Below are positions 44,656 to 56,189 of a stretch of DNA of 64,000 bases, in pieces. Under the pieces are notes generated by a model that saw only the letters and a program-made list of their open reading frames with translations, did no database searches and was not told the DNA's origin. The stretch's first letter is position 1; each line of letters begins with the position of its first letter. A program made the translations under genes and the position numbers. The DNA lies in the NCBI RefSeq assembly GCF_003449035.1, contig NZ_QRGB01000001.1:1612001-1676000 (forward strand), read 5' to 3'. Origin of the DNA: Pedobacter indicus (GTDB lineage Bacteria > Bacteroidota > Bacteroidia > Sphingobacteriales > Sphingobacteriaceae).

Positions 44656-47600
44656 ATGCTTAATAAGATCATTGAGTTTTCCGTAAGGAATAAACTCATC
44701 ATTGGGCTGTTTACATTAGCCCTTATCATATACGGTAGCTTTGAAGCTACGAGATTACCTATAGATGCACAACCAGATATCACGAATAATCAGGTACAGG
44801 TTATAACAGTTGCATCGTCTTTCGGAGCCTTGGATATTGAACGCTTAATTACATTTCCTATTGAGCAAGCAAATAGCAATATCCCAGGAATTGAAGAAAT
44901 TCGAAGTTTTTCCCGATTTGGCCTATCGCTGGTAACGATAGTTTTTGACGACAAGACAGACATTTATTGGGCTCGGCAACAGGTCGCCGAAAGGTTGGCA
45001 CAGGTACAAAGCCAAATACCCGAAGGAATCGGCAGTCCTGAACTTGGGCCGATCTCTACAGGCTTAGGAGAAATTTATCAATACGTGGTGCGGCCAAAAA
45101 AAGGTTACGAGCATAAGTATGACGAGACCGAACTTCGGACCATTCAGGATTGGATTGTAAGAAGGCAGTTGCTTGGAGTTAAAGGGGTTGCTGACGTGAG
45201 CAGCTTCGGTGGAAAACTAAAGCAATATGAAATCGCGATTGATCCTCAGCAACTACAGGCTTACCATCTGACATTAGATGATGTATTCGATGCTCTAGCA
45301 AAGAATAACGAAAATACCGGAGGTGCATATATTGAGAAAGGACCTACCGTTTTATTTATTCGTAGTGAGGGGCTTATCGGAAGTGTAGAGGATATCGAAA
45401 ATATTTCGATTAAGTCTGCTGATAGCCGGTCTCCGGTGTTCATTCGCGATGTGGCCAAAGTTAATATTGGCCATGCCACCAGATACGGAGCGATGACCTA
45501 TAATGATGAAGGGGAGGTGTCAGGGGCGATTGTCATGATGCTAAAAGGTGCAAATAGCAATGAGGTCATTAAAGAAGTTAAAGCTAAGGTGGCGGAGATA
45601 CAGAAAACACTGCCCGAAGGCGTAATCATTGAGCCTTTCTTGGACCGCAGTAAAATGGTTCATAATACAATTTCGACCGTTAAAACCAATCTAATCGAAG
45701 GTGCGTTGATCGTCGTTTTTATTCTGGTTTTATTTTTAGGTAATGTGCGCGCTGGTTTTTTAGTGGCTTCTGTGATCCCATTGTCAATGCTGTTTGCAGT
45801 TATCATGATGAATATATTTGGAGTCGGCGGCAATTTAATGAGTCTGGGAGCATTAGATTTCGGGTTGATTGTAGATGGTGCAGTGATTATTGTTGAAGCA
45901 GTTATGCACCAACTGACCCACAACAAAAAATACGGACTGAATAATATACTTCGTCGGGATGAGATGGACAAGCAAGTTATTTCCTCAGCCTCACGCATGG
46001 CAAATAGTGCTGTTTTTGGACAAATTATCATCCTAATTGTTTACCTCCCTATTCTGACGTTGAGTGGTATCGAAGGTAAAATGTTTAAACCGATGGCTCA
46101 GACCGTTGGGTTTGCATTGATCGGGGCATTCATCCTTTCATTGACATATATACCGATGATGAGTGCACTATTCTTAAGCAGAAAGAAGAAATTAAAACCC
46201 AATCGGTCAGATCGGGTAATGTCACGGATCGAGGTTTTCTATAAAAGATGCTTAATCAAAGCATTGGGTGTGCCGAAGGCTATCATCGGGATAATTCTCG
46301 TGTTGTTTATTGGGGCGATTTTCACACTTTCAAGGATGGGAGGTGAATTTATTCCATCATTAGAGGAAGGCGACTTTGCAGTTGAAACAAGGATTTTACC
46401 AGGAAGTAATATCAATACCACAATCGAGTACACCAACAAGGCGGCTCGGATTCTGAAGGATCAGTTTCCGGAAGTTGAAAAGGTCGTCACCAAAATAGGA
46501 AGTGGTGAAATACCTACGGAGCCTATGCCCATGGATGCAGGAGATATGATCATTGTTCTAAAGCCAAAAAGTGAATGGACTTCGGCAACTACCTTTCCCG
46601 AACTTTCTGAAAAGATGAGTCGTTCTATTCAAGATATTCCGGGAATTACAACGGGCTTTCAATTTCCGGTGCAAATGCGCTTCAATGAATTGATGACAGG
46701 TGCTCGTCAAGATATTGTTGTCAAAATATTTGGAGAAGATTTGGATAGCTTGGCCTATTACGCACAAAAACTAGGGGGCGTAGTGCAGACTGTTGAGGGC
46801 GCACAAGATCTTTACATCGAACCCATCAGTGGTATGCCACAAGTAGTGATTGATTTCGACCGTAATGCCGTTGCAAGATATCAACTGGATATTTCAGACA
46901 TCAATCGGGTTGTAAATATGGCTTTCGCTGGTCAAAGTACGGGAATGGTATTCGAAGGAGAGCGCAGATTTGACTTGGTTGTGCGTTTAGATACTTCTAA
47001 ACGGAGAAATATAGAAGATATCCGCAGTATTCTGATACCTGCACCAAGTGGTATCCAGATTCCCTTGAGCCAACTAGCAGAGGTTGAACTGAAAAATAGT
47101 CCAAATCAGATACAACGTGAAGATGCCAAAAGAAGAATCGTTGTTGGGTTTAACGTCAGAGGCAGGGATGTTGAAAGCATCGTCGAAGAGCTTCAAGAAA
47201 AGGTTGCAGTTGAGATTAATCTACCAGCTGGATATTATACGACATATGGTGGAACATTTGAAAATCTGAATCAAGCAAAAGCACGCTTGGGAGTCGCTGT
47301 ACCTGTCTCATTGGTACTGATATTTCTATTATTGTTTTTCGCATTTGGGTCCATCAAACATAGTTTACTTATCTACACAGCCATTCCTTTGTCAGCGATC
47401 GGAGGTATTTACTTTTTGGCTTTGAGAGGGTTGCCTTTTAGTATCAGTGCCGGCGTTGGCTTTATCGCTTTGTTCGGTGTGGCTGTTTTAAATGGTATTG
47501 TATTAATTGCGGAATTTAACAGACTAAAAAGCCATGGTCTTAAAAACACAACACGAATTGTACTCATCGGTGCGAGGACTCGTTTACGACCCGTATTAAT

Positions 47601-48993
47601 GACCGCGTGTGTTGCGTCGTTAGGTTTTTTACCGATGGCCATCAGTACAGGTTCAGGTGCTGAAGTTCAGCGCCCACTGGCTACCGTTGTAATCGGAGGG
47701 CTGTTGTTGGCAACCTTGCTGACACTTTTTGTCTTGCCTATCCTTTACATCCTTTTTGAAAAGATCCCTAAACTAAAACTCAGGACTAAAAGAAAGACTA
47801 TGAAAGTATTGATCGCAATGCTCTTTATGTTGTCATCGTTACCTGCTTTTTCGCAGCAAGGTATTTTAATTGACCAAGCCATAGACACCGCTGTTAAAAA
47901 CAGCTATTTAACGAAAAATAGCAAGCTTTTGTCCCAGTACCAGCAGAAACTGATAAGGAGTAGTTCAGATATTCCGCAAGCCTCGGTTAATGGGGAATAT
48001 GGGCGTTTGAATTCATGGAGGAAAGATTATAAGATAGGGGTTTCTCAGACAATCTCTTTCCCGACTGTTTATCGGCGTAAAAAGGATGTATTGAACAGTC
48101 AATGGGAGGAGGCTGTTATCAATGAAAAGCTCGCCGAAGCTGAAATAGAGAGGCATGTTTCCGAAGTATTTTACCACCTACTGGTCCTTAATGAAAGAGA
48201 GCAGCTGTTAACGAAAACCGACAGCATATTTAAACTTTTCCTCGATAAGGCTACCAAACGATTTGATATGGGAGCCTCTAATATGATGGAAAAAGCCTCT
48301 GCCGAGGTACAGCGATCCCAGATTGCTATTCAATTAGAAGAATTGAGAAATGAACATGATTTAGCTCTTCTCCGTTTTCAGTTATTATTAAATACTGAGA
48401 AAAAATATATTCCAGAAGGAGAGGCCTTCAGTACTTTAACAGAAGGAGCTCATACAGCTGGTCAGATAAATGAGCACCCTGAAGTTGAATTATATAAACA
48501 GAAGATACAAACAGCGGAACATGAAACACGTTGGAAAAAATCAGAATTTCTGCCGAACCTTTTGGCTGGTTATTCTCTGCAAAGCATGGCTGAATTAGAT
48601 TCACGGCATTACACTGCAATTGAAGTGGGAATTGGAATCCCGATTTTCAATAGAGGGCGCAAAGCGGCTGTCGCGGCTAGTAAACAAAAACAGCTTATCG
48701 CTGAGAACGACTATACGCAGAAACAGGCCGAACTGACAAGCAAATACCAACAAGCGCTTTTAGAGTACGAAAGCCGCGCGGAAACTATTCAAAGGTATCA
48801 TGATGATCAACTTCCGAATGCGGAATTAATTATCCAAACTGCGAAGCGTCAATTCTCCGAAGGAGAAATTGATTACATAGAATGGATCATGCTGAACAAT
48901 CAAGCTATCGCTATCCAATCTGACTATTTTGATGCATTACATGCGCTTAACCAAGCTATTATCAATCTTAATTATCTTCTATATTCTAAATAA
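44656..48993 (+). CDS. CusA/CzcA-type RND metal efflux pump fused to a TolC-like outer-membrane channel
   Basis: Residues 1 to about 1035 are a heavy-metal RND pump with 12 helices; the helix-4 motif D401-F-G-x-x-x-D407-G is that of the metal-exporting subgroup. From residue 1049 a TolC-like protein of about 397 residues follows, beginning with MKVLIAMLFMLSSLPAFSQ, a perfect signal peptide with its own Met (ATG 47800) and a purine-rich AAAAGAAAG before it. The two parts are normally separate CusA and CusC genes. The product might be processed inside, or the channel may also be made from the internal start. The metal is unknown (Cu/Ag or Co/Zn/Cd). Confidence 0.93.
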   Translation: MLNKIIEFSVRNKLIIGLFTLALIIYGSFEATRLPIDAQPDITNNQVQVITVASSFGALDIERLITFPIEQANSNIPGIEEIRSFSRFGLSLVTIVFDDKTDIYWARQQVAERLAQVQSQIPEGIGSPELGPISTGLGEIYQYVVRPKKGYEHKYDETELRTIQDWIVRRQLLGVKGVADVSSFGGKLKQYEIAIDPQQLQAYHLTLDDVFDALAKNNENTGGAYIEKGPTVLFIRSEGLIGSVEDIENISIKSADSRSPVFIRDVAKVNIGHATRYGAMTYNDEGEVSGAIVMMLKGANSNEVIKEVKAKVAEIQKTLPEGVIIEPFLDRSKMVHNTISTVKTNLIEGALIVVFILVLFLGNVRAGFLVASVIPLSMLFAVIMMNIFGVGGNLMSLGALDFGLIVDGAVIIVEAVMHQLTHNKKYGLNNILRRDEMDKQVISSASRMANSAVFGQIIILIVYLPILTLSGIEGKMFKPMAQTVGFALIGAFILSLTYIPMMSALFLSRKKKLKPNRSDRVMSRIEVFYKRCLIKALGVPKAIIGIILVLFIGAIFTLSRMGGEFIPSLEEGDFAVETRILPGSNINTTIEYTNKAARILKDQFPEVEKVVTKIGSGEIPTEPMPMDAGDMIIVLKPKSEWTSATTFPELSEKMSRSIQDIPGITTGFQFPVQMRFNELMTGARQDIVVKIFGEDLDSLAYYAQKLGGVVQTVEGAQDLYIEPISGMPQVVIDFDRNAVARYQLDISDINRVVNMAFAGQSTGMVFEGERRFDLVVRLDTSKRRNIEDIRSILIPAPSGIQIPLSQLAEVELKNSPNQIQREDAKRRIVVGFNVRGRDVESIVEELQEKVAVEINLPAGYYTTYGGTFENLNQAKARLGVAVPVSLVLIFLLLFFAFGSIKHSLLIYTAIPLSAIGGIYFLALRGLPFSISAGVGFIALFGVAVLNGIVLIAEFNRLKSHGLKNTTRIVLIGARTRLRPVLMTACVASLGFLPMAISTGSGAEVQRPLATVVIGGLLLATLLTLFVLPILYILFEKIPKLKLRTKRKTMKVLIAMLFMLSSLPAFSQQGILIDQAIDTAVKNSYLTKNSKLLSQYQQKLIRSSSDIPQASVNGEYGRLNSWRKDYKIGVSQTISFPTVYRRKKDVLNSQWEEAVINEKLAEAEIERHVSEVFYHLLVLNEREQLLTKTDSIFKLFLDKATKRFDMGASNMMEKASAEVQRSQIAIQLEELRNEHDLALLRFQLLLNTEKKYIPEGEAFSTLTEGAHTAGQINEHPEVELYKQKIQTAEHETRWKKSEFLPNLLAGYSLQSMAELDSRHYTAIEVGIGIPIFNRGRKAAVAASKQKQLIAENDYTQKQAELTSKYQQALLEYESRAETIQRYHDDQLPNAELIIQTAKRQFSEGEIDYIEWIMLNNQAIAIQSDYFDALHALNQAIINLNYLLYSK

Positions 48994-49001
48994 AACGAAC
49001 A

Positions 49002-50147
49002 ATGAAAAATATTGCAATTATTCTATTTATAACAATCTTTTTTGGCTGTCAAAATGATCGTGACACGGCTGAACAAGGAAAGGAGAGCTCAGAGACACCA
49101 GCCATAGATAATATTGTCCGATTGACGTCAGAACAGTTAGAGAATGCATCGATTGATTCAGTATCGCTTGAAAAAGTTAATATTTCTGGTGTACTACGAT
49201 TAAACGGAACTGTCGAAGTAGATCCGGATAATCGGGTTTCTCTCTCAAGTGCTTTAGGCGGCCATATCAAATCAGTCAATGTGCTTCCAGGGCAAGCGGT
49301 GCGGAAAGGGGAAGCTATATTAACCGTAGAAGACAACCAATTTATTCAAGTACAACAAGATTATCTTACGACAAAGGCTGAGTTAACCAGTGCAGAAGCC
49401 GATTTTAACCGTCAAAAAGAGCTGAATGCAAGCAAGTCGGTGAGTGACAAGGCGGTGGAGCAAGCAGAAACGGAATACCTGTCTCTGTTAGCCACTAAAA
49501 GAGGATTGGAAGAGAAACTGCGCCTGATCAATATTTCCCCATCGCAGCTAACGCCCGCTAATATCAGACGAGGGATCAATATTGTCGCACCATTCAATGG
49601 TGTGATTAGTGATGTAATGGTTAACAAAGGTAAATACGTTTCTCCGTCTGATGTATTGGTTGAACTGATCAATCCGCAATCAATGCTCTTACGACTTCAG
49701 GTTTTCGAAAAGGACTGGTCATCAGTGAGGGTCGGACAAACCATCGAAGCCCACACAAACCAAGAGTCTGATAAAAAGATCCAAGCCGAAATTATATCAA
49801 CAGGAATGATCATTAACGAAGACGGAAGTGCGCTAGTGATTGCTCGCGTAAAGAACCCTCAGATTGTCCCTCTGGTACCTGGTCTGTATGTAAATGCACT
49901 TATTCATATCGAGAACAAAAATGTTTACACCCTGCCGAATGATGCCATTGTCTCATTCGAAAATAAAAGCTACATCTTTGAATGGATCGAGTCTACCTCT
50001 TTTCGAATGAAAGAAGTAACTACAGGCAGTTCAAATGACGGAAAAGTTGAAATTGTCAACTATGAAGATCTAGTCGATAAACCCATTGTAAATAAAGGAG
50101 CCTACTCCCTATTGATGGCGGCAAAAAACAAAGGCGAAGAAGAATAG
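49002..50147 (+). CDS. CusB/CzcB-like periplasmic adaptor lipoprotein
   Basis: A lipobox (TIFFGC, Cys16) anchors this 381-residue HlyD-type adaptor. The lipoyl-like half is LGGHIKSVNVLPGQAVRKGEAIL, followed by a short coiled coil (about 105-165), the second half GINIVAPFNGVISDVMVNKGKYVSPSD, and barrel and membrane-proximal parts. It lies 8 bases after the pump and completes the tripartite exporter. No N-terminal metal-binding Met/His domain is obvious. Confidence 0.92.
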   Translation: MKNIAIILFITIFFGCQNDRDTAEQGKESSETPAIDNIVRLTSEQLENASIDSVSLEKVNISGVLRLNGTVEVDPDNRVSLSSALGGHIKSVNVLPGQAVRKGEAILTVEDNQFIQVQQDYLTTKAELTSAEADFNRQKELNASKSVSDKAVEQAETEYLSLLATKRGLEEKLRLINISPSQLTPANIRRGINIVAPFNGVISDVMVNKGKYVSPSDVLVELINPQSMLLRLQVFEKDWSSVRVGQTIEAHTNQESDKKIQAEIISTGMIINEDGSALVIARVKNPQIVPLVPGLYVNALIHIENKNVYTLPNDAIVSFENKSYIFEWIESTSFRMKEVTTGSSNDGKVEIVNYEDLVDKPIVNKGAYSLLMAAKNKGEEE

Positions 50148-50162
50148 TTCGTATTTTTGATA

Positions 50163-50186
50163 GGCTGGTTCGTCTATGAACTAGCC
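50163..50186 (+). terminator. Hairpin after the adaptor gene
   Basis: GGCTGGTTC and GAACTAGCC form a 9-bp stem with one G-U pair and loop GTCTAT. There is no T run, so it may only slow or partly end transcription before the receptor gene. Confidence 0.45.
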
Positions 50187-50253
50187 CATTCCGTCTAATA
50201 AACGAAAATTGAAATGATAGTCTTTCTACTTTCATATCATCATTATTCAAAAG

Positions 50254-52605
50254 ATGTTAACTATGAGAAGGTTAGAGATTATCATTTTTATTTTATTTCT
50301 TTTACCAGTTGTTGTTGTCGCTCAAAGTCGGCCTCAGCTTACGCAGACGGTGCATGGTATGGTAAAAGATAAAGTTTCGGGCGAACCATTACCTGCAATT
50401 TCGATCTATTTGGATAACAAACAGTTGGATACCTCGACCGATGAGCATGGTCAATTTGTATTACATGAAGTGCCTATTGGTCGGCACACCGTTCGGGCAA
50501 GTGGTGCAGGTTATGAAACGGCTGTTATTAAAGAAGTCTTGGTGGGTACAGGCAGAGAGTTAAACCTGGAAATAGCACTTCATGAAAAATACATAGCTTT
50601 AGAATCGGTTGTGGTTACCCCCAAAATTAACAAAGAGCAATCGCTGAACCCCATGGCACTTGTGGGTGCTCAAATGTTTAGCGTGGAAGAAGCGAATAGG
50701 TTTGCAGGAGGAATGGATGATCCAGCTCGTTTGGTCAGTTCCTATGCCGGTGTGGCAACACCTCACGTATCGAATAACGGGATTTCAATCCGTGGAAATG
50801 CGCCAAGCCTTTTGCAGTGGCGTGTGGAAGGCATAGAGATTCCTAATCCGAATCATTTTGCTGATATTGACGTTTTGGGAGGCGGGCTTCTATCTGCATT
50901 AAGCAGCAATGTACTTGGTAATTCAGATTTCTTTATTGGTGCGTTCCCGGCCGAATATAATAATTCTATTTCTGGTGTTTTTGATATGCAATTGCGGAAT
51001 GGAAATAGTCAACGACATCAACATACGTTTCAGCTGGGCGTTTTAGGAATAGATTTAGCTTCTGAGGGGCCTATTAGCCGAGAAAACAATTCGTCCTATA
51101 TTATTAACTATCGATATTCAACAACGGGCCTAATCGGGAAGTTTCAAGATAAAGAAGATATGGGCGGTCTGCTAGCCTATCAAGATTTAAATTTCAAATT
51201 TAATTTTCCGACAAGTAAAATCGGTACTTTTTCGTTGTGGGGCGTGGGTTTCATGGATGAAGCTGATCCTATACTCGACGAGGATGAAGAACGAAAGTAT
51301 CTGGATGACGGAATTCTTTCGGCAGCTAAACAAAAGTCAGGTTCGCTAGGCTTGTCCCATCGTTATTTCTTCGATAACAAGAAAACTTCTGTAAACACAA
51401 CGCTTGCCGCAATACATCAAGGTAACGAGATCGAAGAAGAATTTTATAATTTAGATGAGGAGAGAAGTCCAAAAAGTGAACTGTATGCAAATACCACAAA
51501 TCTGGTGTTTAATAGCGTGCTGAATCATAAATTTAACGCAAAGCATAGTAATAAAACAGGAATTACATTTACGAATATCCGTTATGACATGAACTTGGAT
51601 TTTACACCAATATTCGAACAGCCTCTTGAAAATCTATTGAGCTCTACGGAAAGCGCGAACTTAATCTCAGGATATACGAACTCATTATTCAATATTAACG
51701 ATGTATTAACGCTTTCCACAGGACTGAATGCACAGTATTTTTCTTTAAACGGTAATGTGACCATTGAGCCGCGAGCAAGTTTTAAATGGCAATTAAATCC
51801 AAAAAATTCGGTGGCAATAGCCTATGGCCTGCATAGTCGGATGGAAAAGCCGGACGTTTATTTTGTAAAAGATGAAGATGCGAATCTTCCCAACCGAAAT
51901 CTCGATTTAATGAAAAGTCATCATCTTATGCTTTCTTATGTTTATAGTATTTCAGGTAATATGAGCTTGAAAATAGAACCTTATTATCAAGCGTTATTTG
52001 ATGTGCCGGTTACAGACGATGGCAGTTATTCCATTCTTAATAGAAAGGATTTTTATATTAGTGAGAGCTTAGTTAATAAAGGAAAGGGGCGAAATTATGG
52101 GATTGACTTAACTTTTTCAAGATATCTTACAAGAGGATTATACTACATGATGACTGCATCTTTATTTGATTCGAAATACCTGGCGGGTGATGAGAGGTGG
52201 TACAACACTCGTTATAATAGAAATTGGATTACCAATGCTCTTGTTGGAAAAGAATGGATGTTCGGTCGGGATATGCTCAGCGTAAACCTGAAAGCTAGCA
52301 TTCTGGGTGGCAAACGCTATACTCCGGTAGATGAAGCCGCTACATTTGCGCATCCCGATAAAGAGGTTCAATATGATGAAACAAGGATGTATTCGAAGCA
52401 ATTTTCTCCGATGTTTATTGGTGATTTCTCTTTAAGCTATAAAATGAATCGAAAAAAAGTGGCACATGAATTCGCAATAAAAAGTATTAATGCAACTGGT
52501 GCGAAAGAATACTTAGAACATAAATATAACATCATAACACGAACGATTGAACCATACGAGCCTAGCACGTCTATTTTTAATGTAAGTTACCGGATCGAAT
52601 TTTAG
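50254..52605 (+). CDS. TonB-dependent receptor-like outer-membrane protein
   Basis: The 783-residue protein has a signal peptide (to about VVVVAQS), a carboxypeptidase-regulatory-like domain (VHGMVKDKVSGEPLPAISIY, to about residue 115), a plug region (GISIRGNAPSLLQWRVEGIEIPNPNHF) and a long barrel ending in the aromatic SYRIEF. ATG 50263 is another possible start. The plug resembles those in sensor-type receptors. It lies between a metal exporter and a LytS/LytTR signalling unit, which suggests sensing or import of the same substrate; this is inference. Confidence 0.85.
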   Translation: MLTMRRLEIIIFILFLLPVVVVAQSRPQLTQTVHGMVKDKVSGEPLPAISIYLDNKQLDTSTDEHGQFVLHEVPIGRHTVRASGAGYETAVIKEVLVGTGRELNLEIALHEKYIALESVVVTPKINKEQSLNPMALVGAQMFSVEEANRFAGGMDDPARLVSSYAGVATPHVSNNGISIRGNAPSLLQWRVEGIEIPNPNHFADIDVLGGGLLSALSSNVLGNSDFFIGAFPAEYNNSISGVFDMQLRNGNSQRHQHTFQLGVLGIDLASEGPISRENNSSYIINYRYSTTGLIGKFQDKEDMGGLLAYQDLNFKFNFPTSKIGTFSLWGVGFMDEADPILDEDEERKYLDDGILSAAKQKSGSLGLSHRYFFDNKKTSVNTTLAAIHQGNEIEEEFYNLDEERSPKSELYANTTNLVFNSVLNHKFNAKHSNKTGITFTNIRYDMNLDFTPIFEQPLENLLSSTESANLISGYTNSLFNINDVLTLSTGLNAQYFSLNGNVTIEPRASFKWQLNPKNSVAIAYGLHSRMEKPDVYFVKDEDANLPNRNLDLMKSHHLMLSYVYSISGNMSLKIEPYYQALFDVPVTDDGSYSILNRKDFYISESLVNKGKGRNYGIDLTFSRYLTRGLYYMMTASLFDSKYLAGDERWYNTRYNRNWITNALVGKEWMFGRDMLSVNLKASILGGKRYTPVDEAATFAHPDKEVQYDETRMYSKQFSPMFIGDFSLSYKMNRKKVAHEFAIKSINATGAKEYLEHKYNIITRTIEPYEPSTSIFNVSYRIEF

Positions 52606-52619
52606 TGAAATAAAGGACA

Positions 52620-53639
52620 ATGAGTGAACAGCACAAAAATACACTCTTTAACTTTCTGACTTCAACGAACTACAGAGTATGGAGGCACCTGTTTTTCATT
52701 TTGGCCTTTATTCCTATCGGACTGGCACAAGCTTTTTTTGTATTTGATGGTTATACTGAGATTTCTACTCGTACAATCTATGCATTTGGGATCGGTCTCT
52801 TTATCACAATTATTGCTTTTGTCTATTTCAATATTTACGTTTTAGCATCCCGCTTTTTGCCGAAAGGTGAATTCGCGACCTATCTTTTCGCCTTGTTGGT
52901 TTCGGTTTTTTTGTTTCTTTTTTTAAAACATATTACAGAATATTGGATTCTTTCTGCTGCTAATATTCATCGGGGATTTAATGGGATTACCCTGTTGGAT
53001 GGCCTGTCAAATCTAATGCTCTACTCCATATGTATCGCCAGTGGTTCTATCTCACTGCTATTTAAACGATGGATGGCCGGGAATGATGAAATTGAAAATC
53101 TCAAAAATAAGCAGTTGAAAAATAGTATCGAGGAAATTAAAAGCAGGCTCCGTCCTCATTTCTTATACGCCACGTTGGACCATGCTTCAAACCGTGTGAA
53201 ATCAGAACCGGTTCTGATTTCAGATACAGTCTTCCGATTGAGTGAGATGCTGAGATACCAATTGTACGATTCCAAGAGAGACCGAGTTCTGTTGACGTCT
53301 GATATAGAATTCATACGGAATTATCTGGTGCTAGAAAAGCAGAATAGGGAAGGGGCGCTTACTTATACGATATCGGTCAATGGGAACCCCAATAAGCTGG
53401 TTTTTCCAGCACTGTTTATCCCTTGGGTCGATGAAATCGCTGCCGGTAAACCAACCCAGATTGATATCTTATTTGATATCGATACTTGTTTGATCAAGTT
53501 CGAGTGTCGGGTATGGGGACTAGACTTGTCACCATGCGACTTTTCGAAAATCCAACAGGAACAAAAGGTACTATATGCTGATGATATAGCTATAAAAAAA
53601 GAAGACGGATTGATCGAATTACAGTTGAAAATATGCTGA
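52620..53639 (+). CDS. LytS-like membrane protein, probable pseudokinase
   Basis: Four hydrophobic helices (about residues 20-160) lead to a His-kinase core. H180 is kept, but in RPHFLYATLDHASN instead of NPHFLFN. The following SDTVFRLSEMLRYQLYD is normal. The ATP-binding N-box, usually PFVENAVKH, reads PWVDEIAAG, and no glycine-rich G-box exists; the protein is also shorter at the C-terminus than its neighbour. It likely cannot bind ATP. Its stop overlaps the intact kinase gene by seven bases, so the two are co-translated and may pair. Confidence 0.85.
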   Translation: MSEQHKNTLFNFLTSTNYRVWRHLFFILAFIPIGLAQAFFVFDGYTEISTRTIYAFGIGLFITIIAFVYFNIYVLASRFLPKGEFATYLFALLVSVFLFLFLKHITEYWILSAANIHRGFNGITLLDGLSNLMLYSICIASGSISLLFKRWMAGNDEIENLKNKQLKNSIEEIKSRLRPHFLYATLDHASNRVKSEPVLISDTVFRLSEMLRYQLYDSKRDRVLLTSDIEFIRNYLVLEKQNREGALTYTISVNGNPNKLVFPALFIPWVDEIAAGKPTQIDILFDIDTCLIKFECRVWGLDLSPCDFSKIQQEQKVLYADDIAIKKEDGLIELQLKIC

Positions 53640-54673
53640 GCAAGATTAACCATATCACCCCCGATATACTCTTAAATCGACAGTATAGACCACTAAGGCA
53701 TGTTTTACTGCAAATTGCCGTTCTGTTGATCACGGTCAATATCTTATGGGATAAACCTACCCAAATCCTACCCAGCCGTTTATGGGCCTGGGGAATATAT
53801 TGGCTATTGTTCAACCTCGCAATTTATATCAATATGTACGTACTGGTACCACGCTTTTTGTTGAAAGGTAAAACCAAATTGTACGTCGGACTCACATTCT
53901 TGTTGATTTTACTTTCAATACTGTCGATTGGAGTACTCCAAAGTTTGGCGGACGGTGAAAGCGCTACTACTGCACCTACTAGAGCGCCGGTGTTTATAGG
54001 TTTGCTATCTGGTTTGGGGTCTTTTGCTCTTTTTATAGGCGGAATTACCAACCTTCAATTATTTAAGTACCTATTAGAGAACCGCCAGAGGATCAATGAA
54101 CTGGAGAATGCGACAATGGCTGTCGAGCTGGCCAATTTGCAGAACCAAATCAACCCACACTTTTTATTTAATATGCTGAACAATGCGAATATTATGGCAG
54201 GAGAAGATACGCAGAAATCATCTCTGATGCTCTCTAAATTAAAGGATCTTTTGCGCTATCAGGTTGACAAGAGTTCTGAAAAGACGGTTCGATTAGATCA
54301 GGAAATCGCATTATTGAAAGATTATCTCGAACTTGAAACCGTTCGACGAGATCGTTTTTCGTATGATATTAAATTTTGGGGAGACATGAGTCAATCCGTG
54401 CCGCCGCTTCTTTTTATTCCCTTTGTAGAGAATGCTGTTAAACACAATCCGGAGAACGATGCTTATGTTCATCTACTATTTCGCTTGACGGCTGATAAAT
54501 TGTATTTTGAATGTATAAATCCGAAAGCCAAAACTACTCGGACTAGAAAAGAAGGAGGGATCGGCTTGGTGAATATCCGAAGACGTTTAGATTTATTGTA
54601 TAAACAAAAATATGAACTTGTACTTAAGGATAATGGGAGTTTTTATACCGCAAAATTAGAGCTGGAGCTATGA
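53633..54673 (+). CDS. LytS-like sensor histidine kinase
   Basis: Four membrane helices (about residues 25-155) precede a His-kinase core with N174-P-H176-F-L-F-N. The ATP-binding boxes are complete: P263-F-V-E-N267-A-V-K-H and GGIGLVNIRRRL (about 309-320). H176 should be phosphorylated and pass the phosphate to the LytTR regulator encoded next, whose gene overlaps by four bases (ATGA). The 346-aa length is usual. The likely stimulus is at the membrane, unknown. Confidence 0.93.
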   Translation: MLSKINHITPDILLNRQYRPLRHVLLQIAVLLITVNILWDKPTQILPSRLWAWGIYWLLFNLAIYINMYVLVPRFLLKGKTKLYVGLTFLLILLSILSIGVLQSLADGESATTAPTRAPVFIGLLSGLGSFALFIGGITNLQLFKYLLENRQRINELENATMAVELANLQNQINPHFLFNMLNNANIMAGEDTQKSSLMLSKLKDLLRYQVDKSSEKTVRLDQEIALLKDYLELETVRRDRFSYDIKFWGDMSQSVPPLLFIPFVENAVKHNPENDAYVHLLFRLTADKLYFECINPKAKTTRTRKEGGIGLVNIRRRLDLLYKQKYELVLKDNGSFYTAKLELEL

Positions 54674-55377
54674 AATGTATTATTGTAGACGATGAGCCTA
54701 TCGCCCGTAAAGGGATAGAAAAACTAACAACAACTATCTCGTCGTTGAAATTATTAGGTTGTTTTGAAAGTGCCGAAACGGCGGCTAAATTTATTCGAGA
54801 CCACGAAGTCGACTTACTCTTCCTGGATATCCAGATGTCCGGATTGAATGGGATTGAGTTGGCGAGAACGATTCCAGCGACAACTTTGGTCATCTTTACA
54901 ACGGCTTTTGCAGAGTATGCACTTGACAGTTATGAGGTGGACGCAGTGGACTATCTCGTCAAACCCATCAAACCCGAACGATTTAAGAAGGCAGTAGAAA
55001 AAGCTCTTAGCTATCATAGTATGCTCCTATCTGAAGAAAAGAATGTTGGTATCGAGCAGGTTAATAATGACTTTATGTTCATAAAATCTGATCGTCGGTT
55101 CTTCAAAGTAAATTTTAGAGATATTTTGTTCGTTGAAGGCTTAAAGGATTATGTTATTATCCAAACGACGACCCAGCGTCTAATCACCCATATGAACCTG
55201 AAAACAATTCATGGATTGTTACCGCAACTTAATTTTTTACGTGTCAACCGTTCTTATATTATCAATAAAGAAAGTATTGATTCGTTTAGTAACAATGATG
55301 TCTTTATCAGAGATTATGAGATTAGCATCGGTAATAGTTATCGTGATGAGTTTTTTGATGAATTGTTGAAAAAGTAA
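54670..55377 (+). CDS. LytTR-family response regulator
   Basis: The receiver domain (residues 1-115) has the phospho-acceptor D53 (LLFLDIQMSG) with the acidic pair at DDEP and the switch Lys in VKPIKPERF. The C-terminal LytTR DNA-binding domain (about 140-235) includes FFKVNFRDILFVEGLKDYVII and LNFLRVNRSYIINKESIDS. It is the output of the kinase pair. Its targets may include the upstream receptor and pump, which I cannot show. Confidence 0.94.
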   Translation: MKCIIVDDEPIARKGIEKLTTTISSLKLLGCFESAETAAKFIRDHEVDLLFLDIQMSGLNGIELARTIPATTLVIFTTAFAEYALDSYEVDAVDYLVKPIKPERFKKAVEKALSYHSMLLSEEKNVGIEQVNNDFMFIKSDRRFFKVNFRDILFVEGLKDYVIIQTTTQRLITHMNLKTIHGLLPQLNFLRVNRSYIINKESIDSFSNNDVFIRDYEISIGNSYRDEFFDELLKK

Positions 55378-55406: not shown

Positions 55407-56189
55407 ATGAAAAAGTTATGTCTTCTAATCTTTATTTGTGGCTTTGCTTTAGGCGTGAATGCTCAAACAAAAAATGAAACCCTTGAAGTGATTTCCTATA
55501 ATATTCACCACGGAGCTAATAAGGACGAAGTGTTGACGATTGATAAGGTAGGTGAGTTTCTGAAGAAATACAAAGTAGACCTGGTTGGTCTACAGGAAGT
55601 TGACAGCTTATGTAACCGATCAGGAAAAACAGATCAGATGAAAGTTTTGGCGGAAATTACAGGTATGCATGCTGCATTTGGAAGGCATTTTCCTTATGAT
55701 GGCGGATCTTATGGCTTGGGTCTGCTTTCAGCTTTTCCGTTAAGTGACATCCGCAACGATCGGATCACATCGAAATCTGTCGATGGTGAAAAACGCTCGC
55801 TCGCTCTGCTTAGTGCAATTGCAACCCTCCCTGATGGCCGGAAAATTCGATTCGCAACGGTTCATTTTGCACTGGATCAGCCGACGAGAATGCTCCAAGC
55901 TGAAGAGGTTCTGGAGTTTTTAAAAGAAGATGGTTCTATACCGGTTATTTTGACGGGCGACTTGAACGCTAAACCAGACAATGAGGCCATTGAGTTGTTA
56001 CAACTCGATTTTTCATTGACTGACGCAAAGCTCGGCAATACCTTCCCTGTATATGAAGCTGATCGGAAAATCGATTACATCATGGTCAGCTCGAAAAATC
56101 TGCATTCCGTTAAAGGAGCGAAAGTTCTGGATAAAGAAGACCATTCTGACCATTTACCTCTTTGGAGTGCTGTGGAGCTGAAATTTTAG
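55407..56189 (+). CDS. Secreted endonuclease/exonuclease/phosphatase-family protein
   Basis: After a signal peptide (1-19, ending VNAQ) come the family motifs: SYNIHHG, LVGLQEVDS, GDLNAKPDN and DHSDHLPLWSAV, containing the metal-binding Asn, Glu, Asp and His. Enzymes in this fold cleave DNA, inositol phosphates or sphingomyelin; the secreted Bacteroidetes versions are mostly uncharacterised. It lies 29 bases after the LytTR gene. After the stop (TAG 56187-56189) the same frame stays open to about 56331. Confidence 0.88.
   Translation: MKKLCLLIFICGFALGVNAQTKNETLEVISYNIHHGANKDEVLTIDKVGEFLKKYKVDLVGLQEVDSLCNRSGKTDQMKVLAEITGMHAAFGRHFPYDGGSYGLGLLSAFPLSDIRNDRITSKSVDGEKRSLALLSAIATLPDGRKIRFATVHFALDQPTRMLQAEEVLEFLKEDGSIPVILTGDLNAKPDNEAIELLQLDFSLTDAKLGNTFPVYEADRKIDYIMVSSKNLHSVKGAKVLDKEDHSDHLPLWSAVELKF

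Follow-up and report, generated by a model that had tools for sequence, protein, structure and literature searches.

Four genes lie in the same orientation in one part of the window, the 64-kb stretch of DNA that was analyzed. The first (50254..52605, + strand) encodes an outer-membrane receptor-like protein of 783 residues, with orthologues at other loci, that carries CarboxypepD_reg domains (Pfam) and is probably a TonB-receptor-like barrel. After a gap of 14 nt comes the gene for protein A (52620..53639, +), a pseudo-histidine-kinase of 339 residues made up of a membrane region, dimerization helices and an eroded ATPase-like domain, and then the gene for protein B (53633..54673, +), an intact His_kinase (PF06580) sensor kinase of 346 residues with His176, Asn267 and GGIGL at residues 308-312. 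The fourth gene (54670..55377, +), found after B at the A-B loci collected, encodes a response regulator, whose Pfam scores (Response_reg 70 bits, LytTR 62.6 bits) define a receiver plus a LytTR DNA-binding domain. The ORF coordinates of A and B match the seven-base overlap reported in the original prediction (ATGCTGA), and the regulator starts within the stop codon of B (ATGA), an overlap of 4 nt.

The CarboxypepD_reg domains of the receptor-like protein score over their cut-off, and no barrel or plug model of Pfam matched the window protein; the orthologue at locus L187 matches the TonB-receptor barrel model at 28.5 bits against a cut-off of 27. No solved structure similar in sequence to the receptor-like protein was found. 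At two loci, L194 (7988-8908) and L197 (8736-9656), a DUF6268 protein (PF19783, about 360 bits) stands in the receptor's place upstream of the pair. Links to the flanking genes were rejected, as the upstream RND efflux genes (44656-50147) do not lie beside the pair in other loci and the downstream phosphatase-family gene (55407-56189) is likewise not a conserved neighbor. Within the upstream segment, 44656-48993 is a single ORF of 1445 aa that, by sequence judgement only, seemingly joins a CzcA-type RND pump to a TolC-like outer-membrane protein.

Motifs and predicted folds of the two kinases

Protein A matches PF06580 at 52.5 bits over residues 170-241 and protein B matches it at 81.2 bits (cut-off 25.2 for both). 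This is the sole Pfam match of B; A has, in addition, a single weak match to UVSSA_N (PF20867) under its cut-off, and no ATPase model of Pfam matched A. Neither protein has a match to 5TMR-LYT, the input domain that is a feature of the LytS family proper (PMC10653868), so the label "LytS-like" originally given to the intact kinase holds for the His_kinase core and fails for the LytS-defining sensor. The two proteins align with one another over residues 11-296 at 25% identity (E 2e-23), the N-terminal membrane region included, and the shared four-helix N-terminus proposed earlier is recovered in AlphaFold models as four long N-terminal helices in both A and B.

As had been noted from the sequence, A of the window keeps the H-box histidine (RPHFLYATL, H180) and has lost the N-box and G-box. 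The N-box reads PWVDEIAAG in A versus PFVENAVKH in B, with Glu replaced by Asp, Asn by Glu and Lys by Ala; the G-box GGxGLxN is absent, and the C-terminal domain is shorter than that of B. Because the N-box Asn and the G-box are missing, A should not autophosphorylate. The earlier description of B as intact is upheld by the 14 aligned B sequences, in which His176, Glu266, Asn267, Lys270, His271, Gly308, Gly309, Gly311 and Asn314 are all invariant.

The AlphaFold models of A and B, which were built from 28-row alignments, have mean pLDDT values of 86 and 79, respectively. The A model is a shortened kinase fold whose best PDB match is GanS (Z 13.2, rmsd 4.3 over 157 residues), and the GanS kinase core is the best structural match of both models; a structural re-alignment of 1,000 chains covers the kinase region at 175-339. 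These models suggest that A keeps an ATPase-like fold minus the motifs. A complete ATP site in A, named in the original prediction as the structural counter-evidence, finds no support in the sequence, from which the motifs are gone. GanS of Geobacillus stearothermophilus (PDB 6swk, 6swj) is the closest solved structure to A and B and, unlike A, retains the H-box, N-box and G-box.

A co-inherited pair under constraint

A search of genomes from the window's taxonomic family (399), phylum (395) and class (395) recovered 16 copies of A-type proteins in 15 Bacteroidota genomes (G000, G371, G332, G115, G360, G266, G164, G302, G275, G112, G174, G209, G215, G642, which has two copies, and G758). With a profile built from 14 A-type copies, true A-type proteins score at least 360 bits and everything else at most 245; the gene is absent from the only other species of the window's genus among the genomes searched. 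The boxes are abnormal in all 16 copies, which makes the pseudokinase call stronger than first claimed, and orthologues with normal boxes, the finding that was to speak against it, number 0 of 16. Among the 14 aligned copies, the N-box column is never Asn and the G-box is always missing. The loss of boxes in A is beyond chance: all boxes are present in 208 of the 228 distinct kinases of this type at the loci collected, and A-type proteins make up 16 of the 20 that are box-deficient.

A B-type kinase adjoins A in 16 of 16 copies with a LytTR regulator next, and the A and B genes share 1-29 nt at each of the 14 aligned loci, a layout of the FasBCA type in which two adjacent kinase genes, one of them degenerate, are accompanied by a LytTR-type regulator. 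In genus g17 (93 genomes), the A and B profiles mark the identical 10 genomes (A 374-490 bits, B 454-557; runners-up about 220 and 293), and neither gene occurs alone in any of the 93. This bears on the reading that A and B are independent inputs for different signals, with A acting via another kinase or via the receptor-like protein and not via B. The membrane regions of the two proteins do differ (the 25% identity is the overall figure) and each has its own conserved residues, but genes that are never apart in 93 genomes make independent action highly improbable. The receptor-like gene lies directly 5' of the pair in most loci. In the complete loci of g17, its orthologues are 51-67% identical and directly upstream of the pair; a receptor orthologue scoring above 860 bits is found in 9 of the 10 pair-bearing genomes (in the tenth, G332, it is truncated at the end of a contig) and in 0 of the 83 genomes without the pair, where the best score is 608 bits. 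Judged by these loci, the pair is a LytTR-linked unit inherited across 15 Bacteroidota genomes and no local accident.

In a tree of 67 proteins, A and B form separate clades with support of 100/99 and 98/96, respectively. Sub-groups in the A and B subtrees match one another (window, L178 and L179; L181, L182, L184 and L186; L180, L187, L193, L189 and L190), and the simplest reading of these sequences is that the pair has been co-inherited since one origin. A recent, decaying local tandem copy of B is ruled out, since A has its own well-supported clade and is not nested in B. In close pairs, dN/dS of A is approximately 0.13-0.27 (YN00 or NG86, for pairs with an estimable dS), and because these values are well below 1, A is under purifying selection; together with open frames in 16 copies, they rule out a pseudogene. 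Mean pairwise identities within A are 39% in the membrane region, 43% in the dimerization region and 26% in the catalytic region, versus 43%, 53% and 50% within B, and for this reason the relaxed constraint in A is assigned mainly to the catalytic domain. Kept in A are LRYQLY (residues 211-216, invariant), W151, K174, P179 and several membrane-region residues.

Across the 14 aligned A copies, the phospho-acceptor column reads H/Q/Q/A/A/I/I/V/I/Q/A/E/E/S. The histidine is present in the window only; the other 15 copies have Q, A, I, V, E or S in its place. The codon is CAT in the window and CAA or CAG (Gln) in the nearest orthologues, L178 and L179, one base away. The window may have retained or regained the histidine: retention would take several independent losses on the tree, and regain one loss plus one gain. 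Could B phosphorylate His180 of A in trans, with A relaying the phosphate, as has been proposed for FasC? The His180 of the window stands in a recognizable H-box context, and the Fas system depends on H246 of FasC (PMC12675982). However, the operon is kept although the histidine is missing in 15 of 16 A-type copies, the two nearest orthologues included, and the Asn that is invariant in B four residues past the H-box histidine is Ala in A of the window. As a mechanism for the family, the phospho-acceptor role originally proposed does not survive these substitutions, and we consider it very unlikely; in the window alone, His180 may have a species-specific phosphotransfer role.

A candidate regulator site and promoter

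A candidate binding region for the LytTR regulator lies ahead of the receptor-like gene at 50148..50199 (+), with half-sites TTCGTATTTT (50148), TTCGTCTATG (50169) and TCCGTCTAAT (50190) at 21-bp spacing, and a degenerate -7 promoter box, TACTTTCA (50227..50234, +), stands 27 nt past the last half-site. The consensus of the Bacteroidota -7 box is TAnnTTTG. A de novo motif search upstream of the first gene at 13 loci learned the half-site TTtGTCTCAt, repeated at 21 bp; the log-likelihood of the repeat is 91 at this spacing, at most 52 at other spacings (16 to 26) and 27-34 in shuffles. When the motif was trained without the window, its top match on both strands of the 64 kb was 50169-50199 (19.9 bits; next 15.0), at -85 from the receptor ATG, and the third half-site (50148) derives from a 12.3-bit match one period upstream. 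In 8 of 12 loci, a TAnnTTT box stands precisely 27 nt past the second half-site, with at most one locus at any other offset, and the window has an imperfect copy at the 27-nt offset. The site is weak at L178, and the motif model missed L190 and L193 at the expected place, although a half-site is present at that place in L190 and the pattern is matched farther upstream in L193. The window site was found again by a genome-wide pattern scan. With respect to a regulon beyond the operon, the three other pattern matches in the window's genome are not clearly above reversed-pattern controls.

The target of a LytTR regulator is a pair of 9-11-nt repeats with a spacer of 11-13 nt, and the YpdB site is of the form 10-N11-10, with 11 bp between its two direct repeats of 10 bp each (PMC4847170). 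The predicted site at 50169-50199 is likewise 10-N11-10 and fits this target geometry. Because the site is conserved and its 27-nt spacing to the -7 box is fixed, we infer that the operon's own regulator would bind the candidate 21-bp repeat and act as an activator.

In five genomes, the receptor orthologues (L181, L182, L183, L184 and L186) begin with an HU-like N-terminal segment (MNKxETIxxIS...) before a membrane segment, and at L193 a small ORF of its own, between the receptor and the candidate binding site, encodes a similar segment. The segment matches PF00216 under the cut-off (19.8 versus 22.4), is odd for an outer-membrane protein and is absent in the window.

Proposed mechanism and comparison with known systems

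We hypothesize, and consider probable, that A, as a "double-dead" pseudokinase, exerts its effect by pairing allosterically with B, and that the regulator activates the receptor-A-B-regulator operon. A non-catalytic role follows from the lack of the N-box Asn and the G-box and from the loss of the histidine in 15 of 16 copies. The conserved dimerization helices of A would pair with those of B, and the membrane part of A would switch B on or off upon a signal; B would then autophosphorylate its own His176 and hand the phosphate to the LytTR regulator, which would bind the 21-bp direct repeat immediately upstream of the promoter. Since nearly all A members have no histidine, an A-B dimer would have to phosphorylate the histidine of B in cis, or A would act on B homodimers. 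An A-B heterodimer is consistent with the strict linkage, the gene overlap, the mirrored trees and the constrained dimerization domain. It is possible that A is the sensor, as its membrane part is conserved, yet B has a similar membrane part. A more elaborate version, in which A reads the state or ligand of the receptor across the envelope and, within an obligate heterodimer, drives B to autophosphorylate in cis, which would put receptor synthesis under the control of the receptor itself, is rather unlikely.

B alone has all that a normal homodimeric kinase needs, and A could have an inhibitory or accessory role. In the main rival model, A regulates B negatively in the manner of RetS acting on GacS, with B monomers trapped in inactive heterodimers or autophosphorylation blocked until a signal arrives. 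RetS, whose degenerate ATPase domain has no G-boxes, inhibits GacS, but does so with an H-box phosphatase motif and receiver domains that A lacks (PMC5992135). The constrained helices and eroded catalytic domain of A are as compatible with an inhibitor as with an activator, whereas the one-to-one linkage and gene overlap of A and B better suit an obligate partner. RetS and GacS, by comparison, are encoded apart. Inhibition by A is doubtful on this balance, and obligate pairing with B, in which A is the allosteric partner, is favored.

The nearest precedent is FasBCA of group A Streptococcus, in which two adjacent sensor-kinase genes, one for a proposed pseudokinase, accompany a LytTR-type regulator; a FasB-FasC heterodimer is indicated by two-hybrid analysis, and the phospho-acceptor is proposed to come from the pseudokinase (PMC12675982). 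FasC, however, retains its His (H246) and depends on it, and has a recognizable but dispensable ATPase domain and six membrane helices (PMC12675982), whereas A is of the PF06580 type, has neither an N-box nor a G-box, has also lost the His in almost every copy, and belongs to an operon that adds an outer-membrane protein. YpdA/YpdB and BtsS/BtsR of E. coli also combine a kinase with a LytTR regulator, and the site geometry of YpdB is identical to that predicted here, but these systems have a single kinase with the 5TMR-LYT sensor that is absent in A and B, and the target of BtsR is a pyruvate transporter gene (PMC4847170, PMC10653868). In Pseudomonas aeruginosa, RetS is likewise a kinase with a degenerate ATPase domain that acts on an intact kinase, and differs from A in its receiver domains, retained H-box and negative regulation (PMC5992135). 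A pseudokinase variant of ChrS in Corynebacterium glutamicum, without a working catalytic domain, heterodimerizes with a paralogue, but arose in laboratory evolution, unlike the inherited A-B pair (PMC9491836).

A pseudokinase with LytS, or a "histidine pseudokinase", was not found in the open-access literature, and the bacterial histidine-kinase pseudokinases found described are single cases. The A-B pair is a natural and repeatedly inherited one, in which one partner is without ATP-binding motifs and nearly always without the phospho-acceptor. It makes cis versus trans phosphorylation and allosteric activation directly testable, with the candidate binding site as a simple promoter read-out. 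A second pseudokinase layout was seen in genus g5 (L013 1195-3612 and L021 3-2367), where an intact kinase is followed by a degenerate kinase and then by a LytTR regulator; the degenerate kinase has PRFLFN instead of PHFLFN and no G-box.
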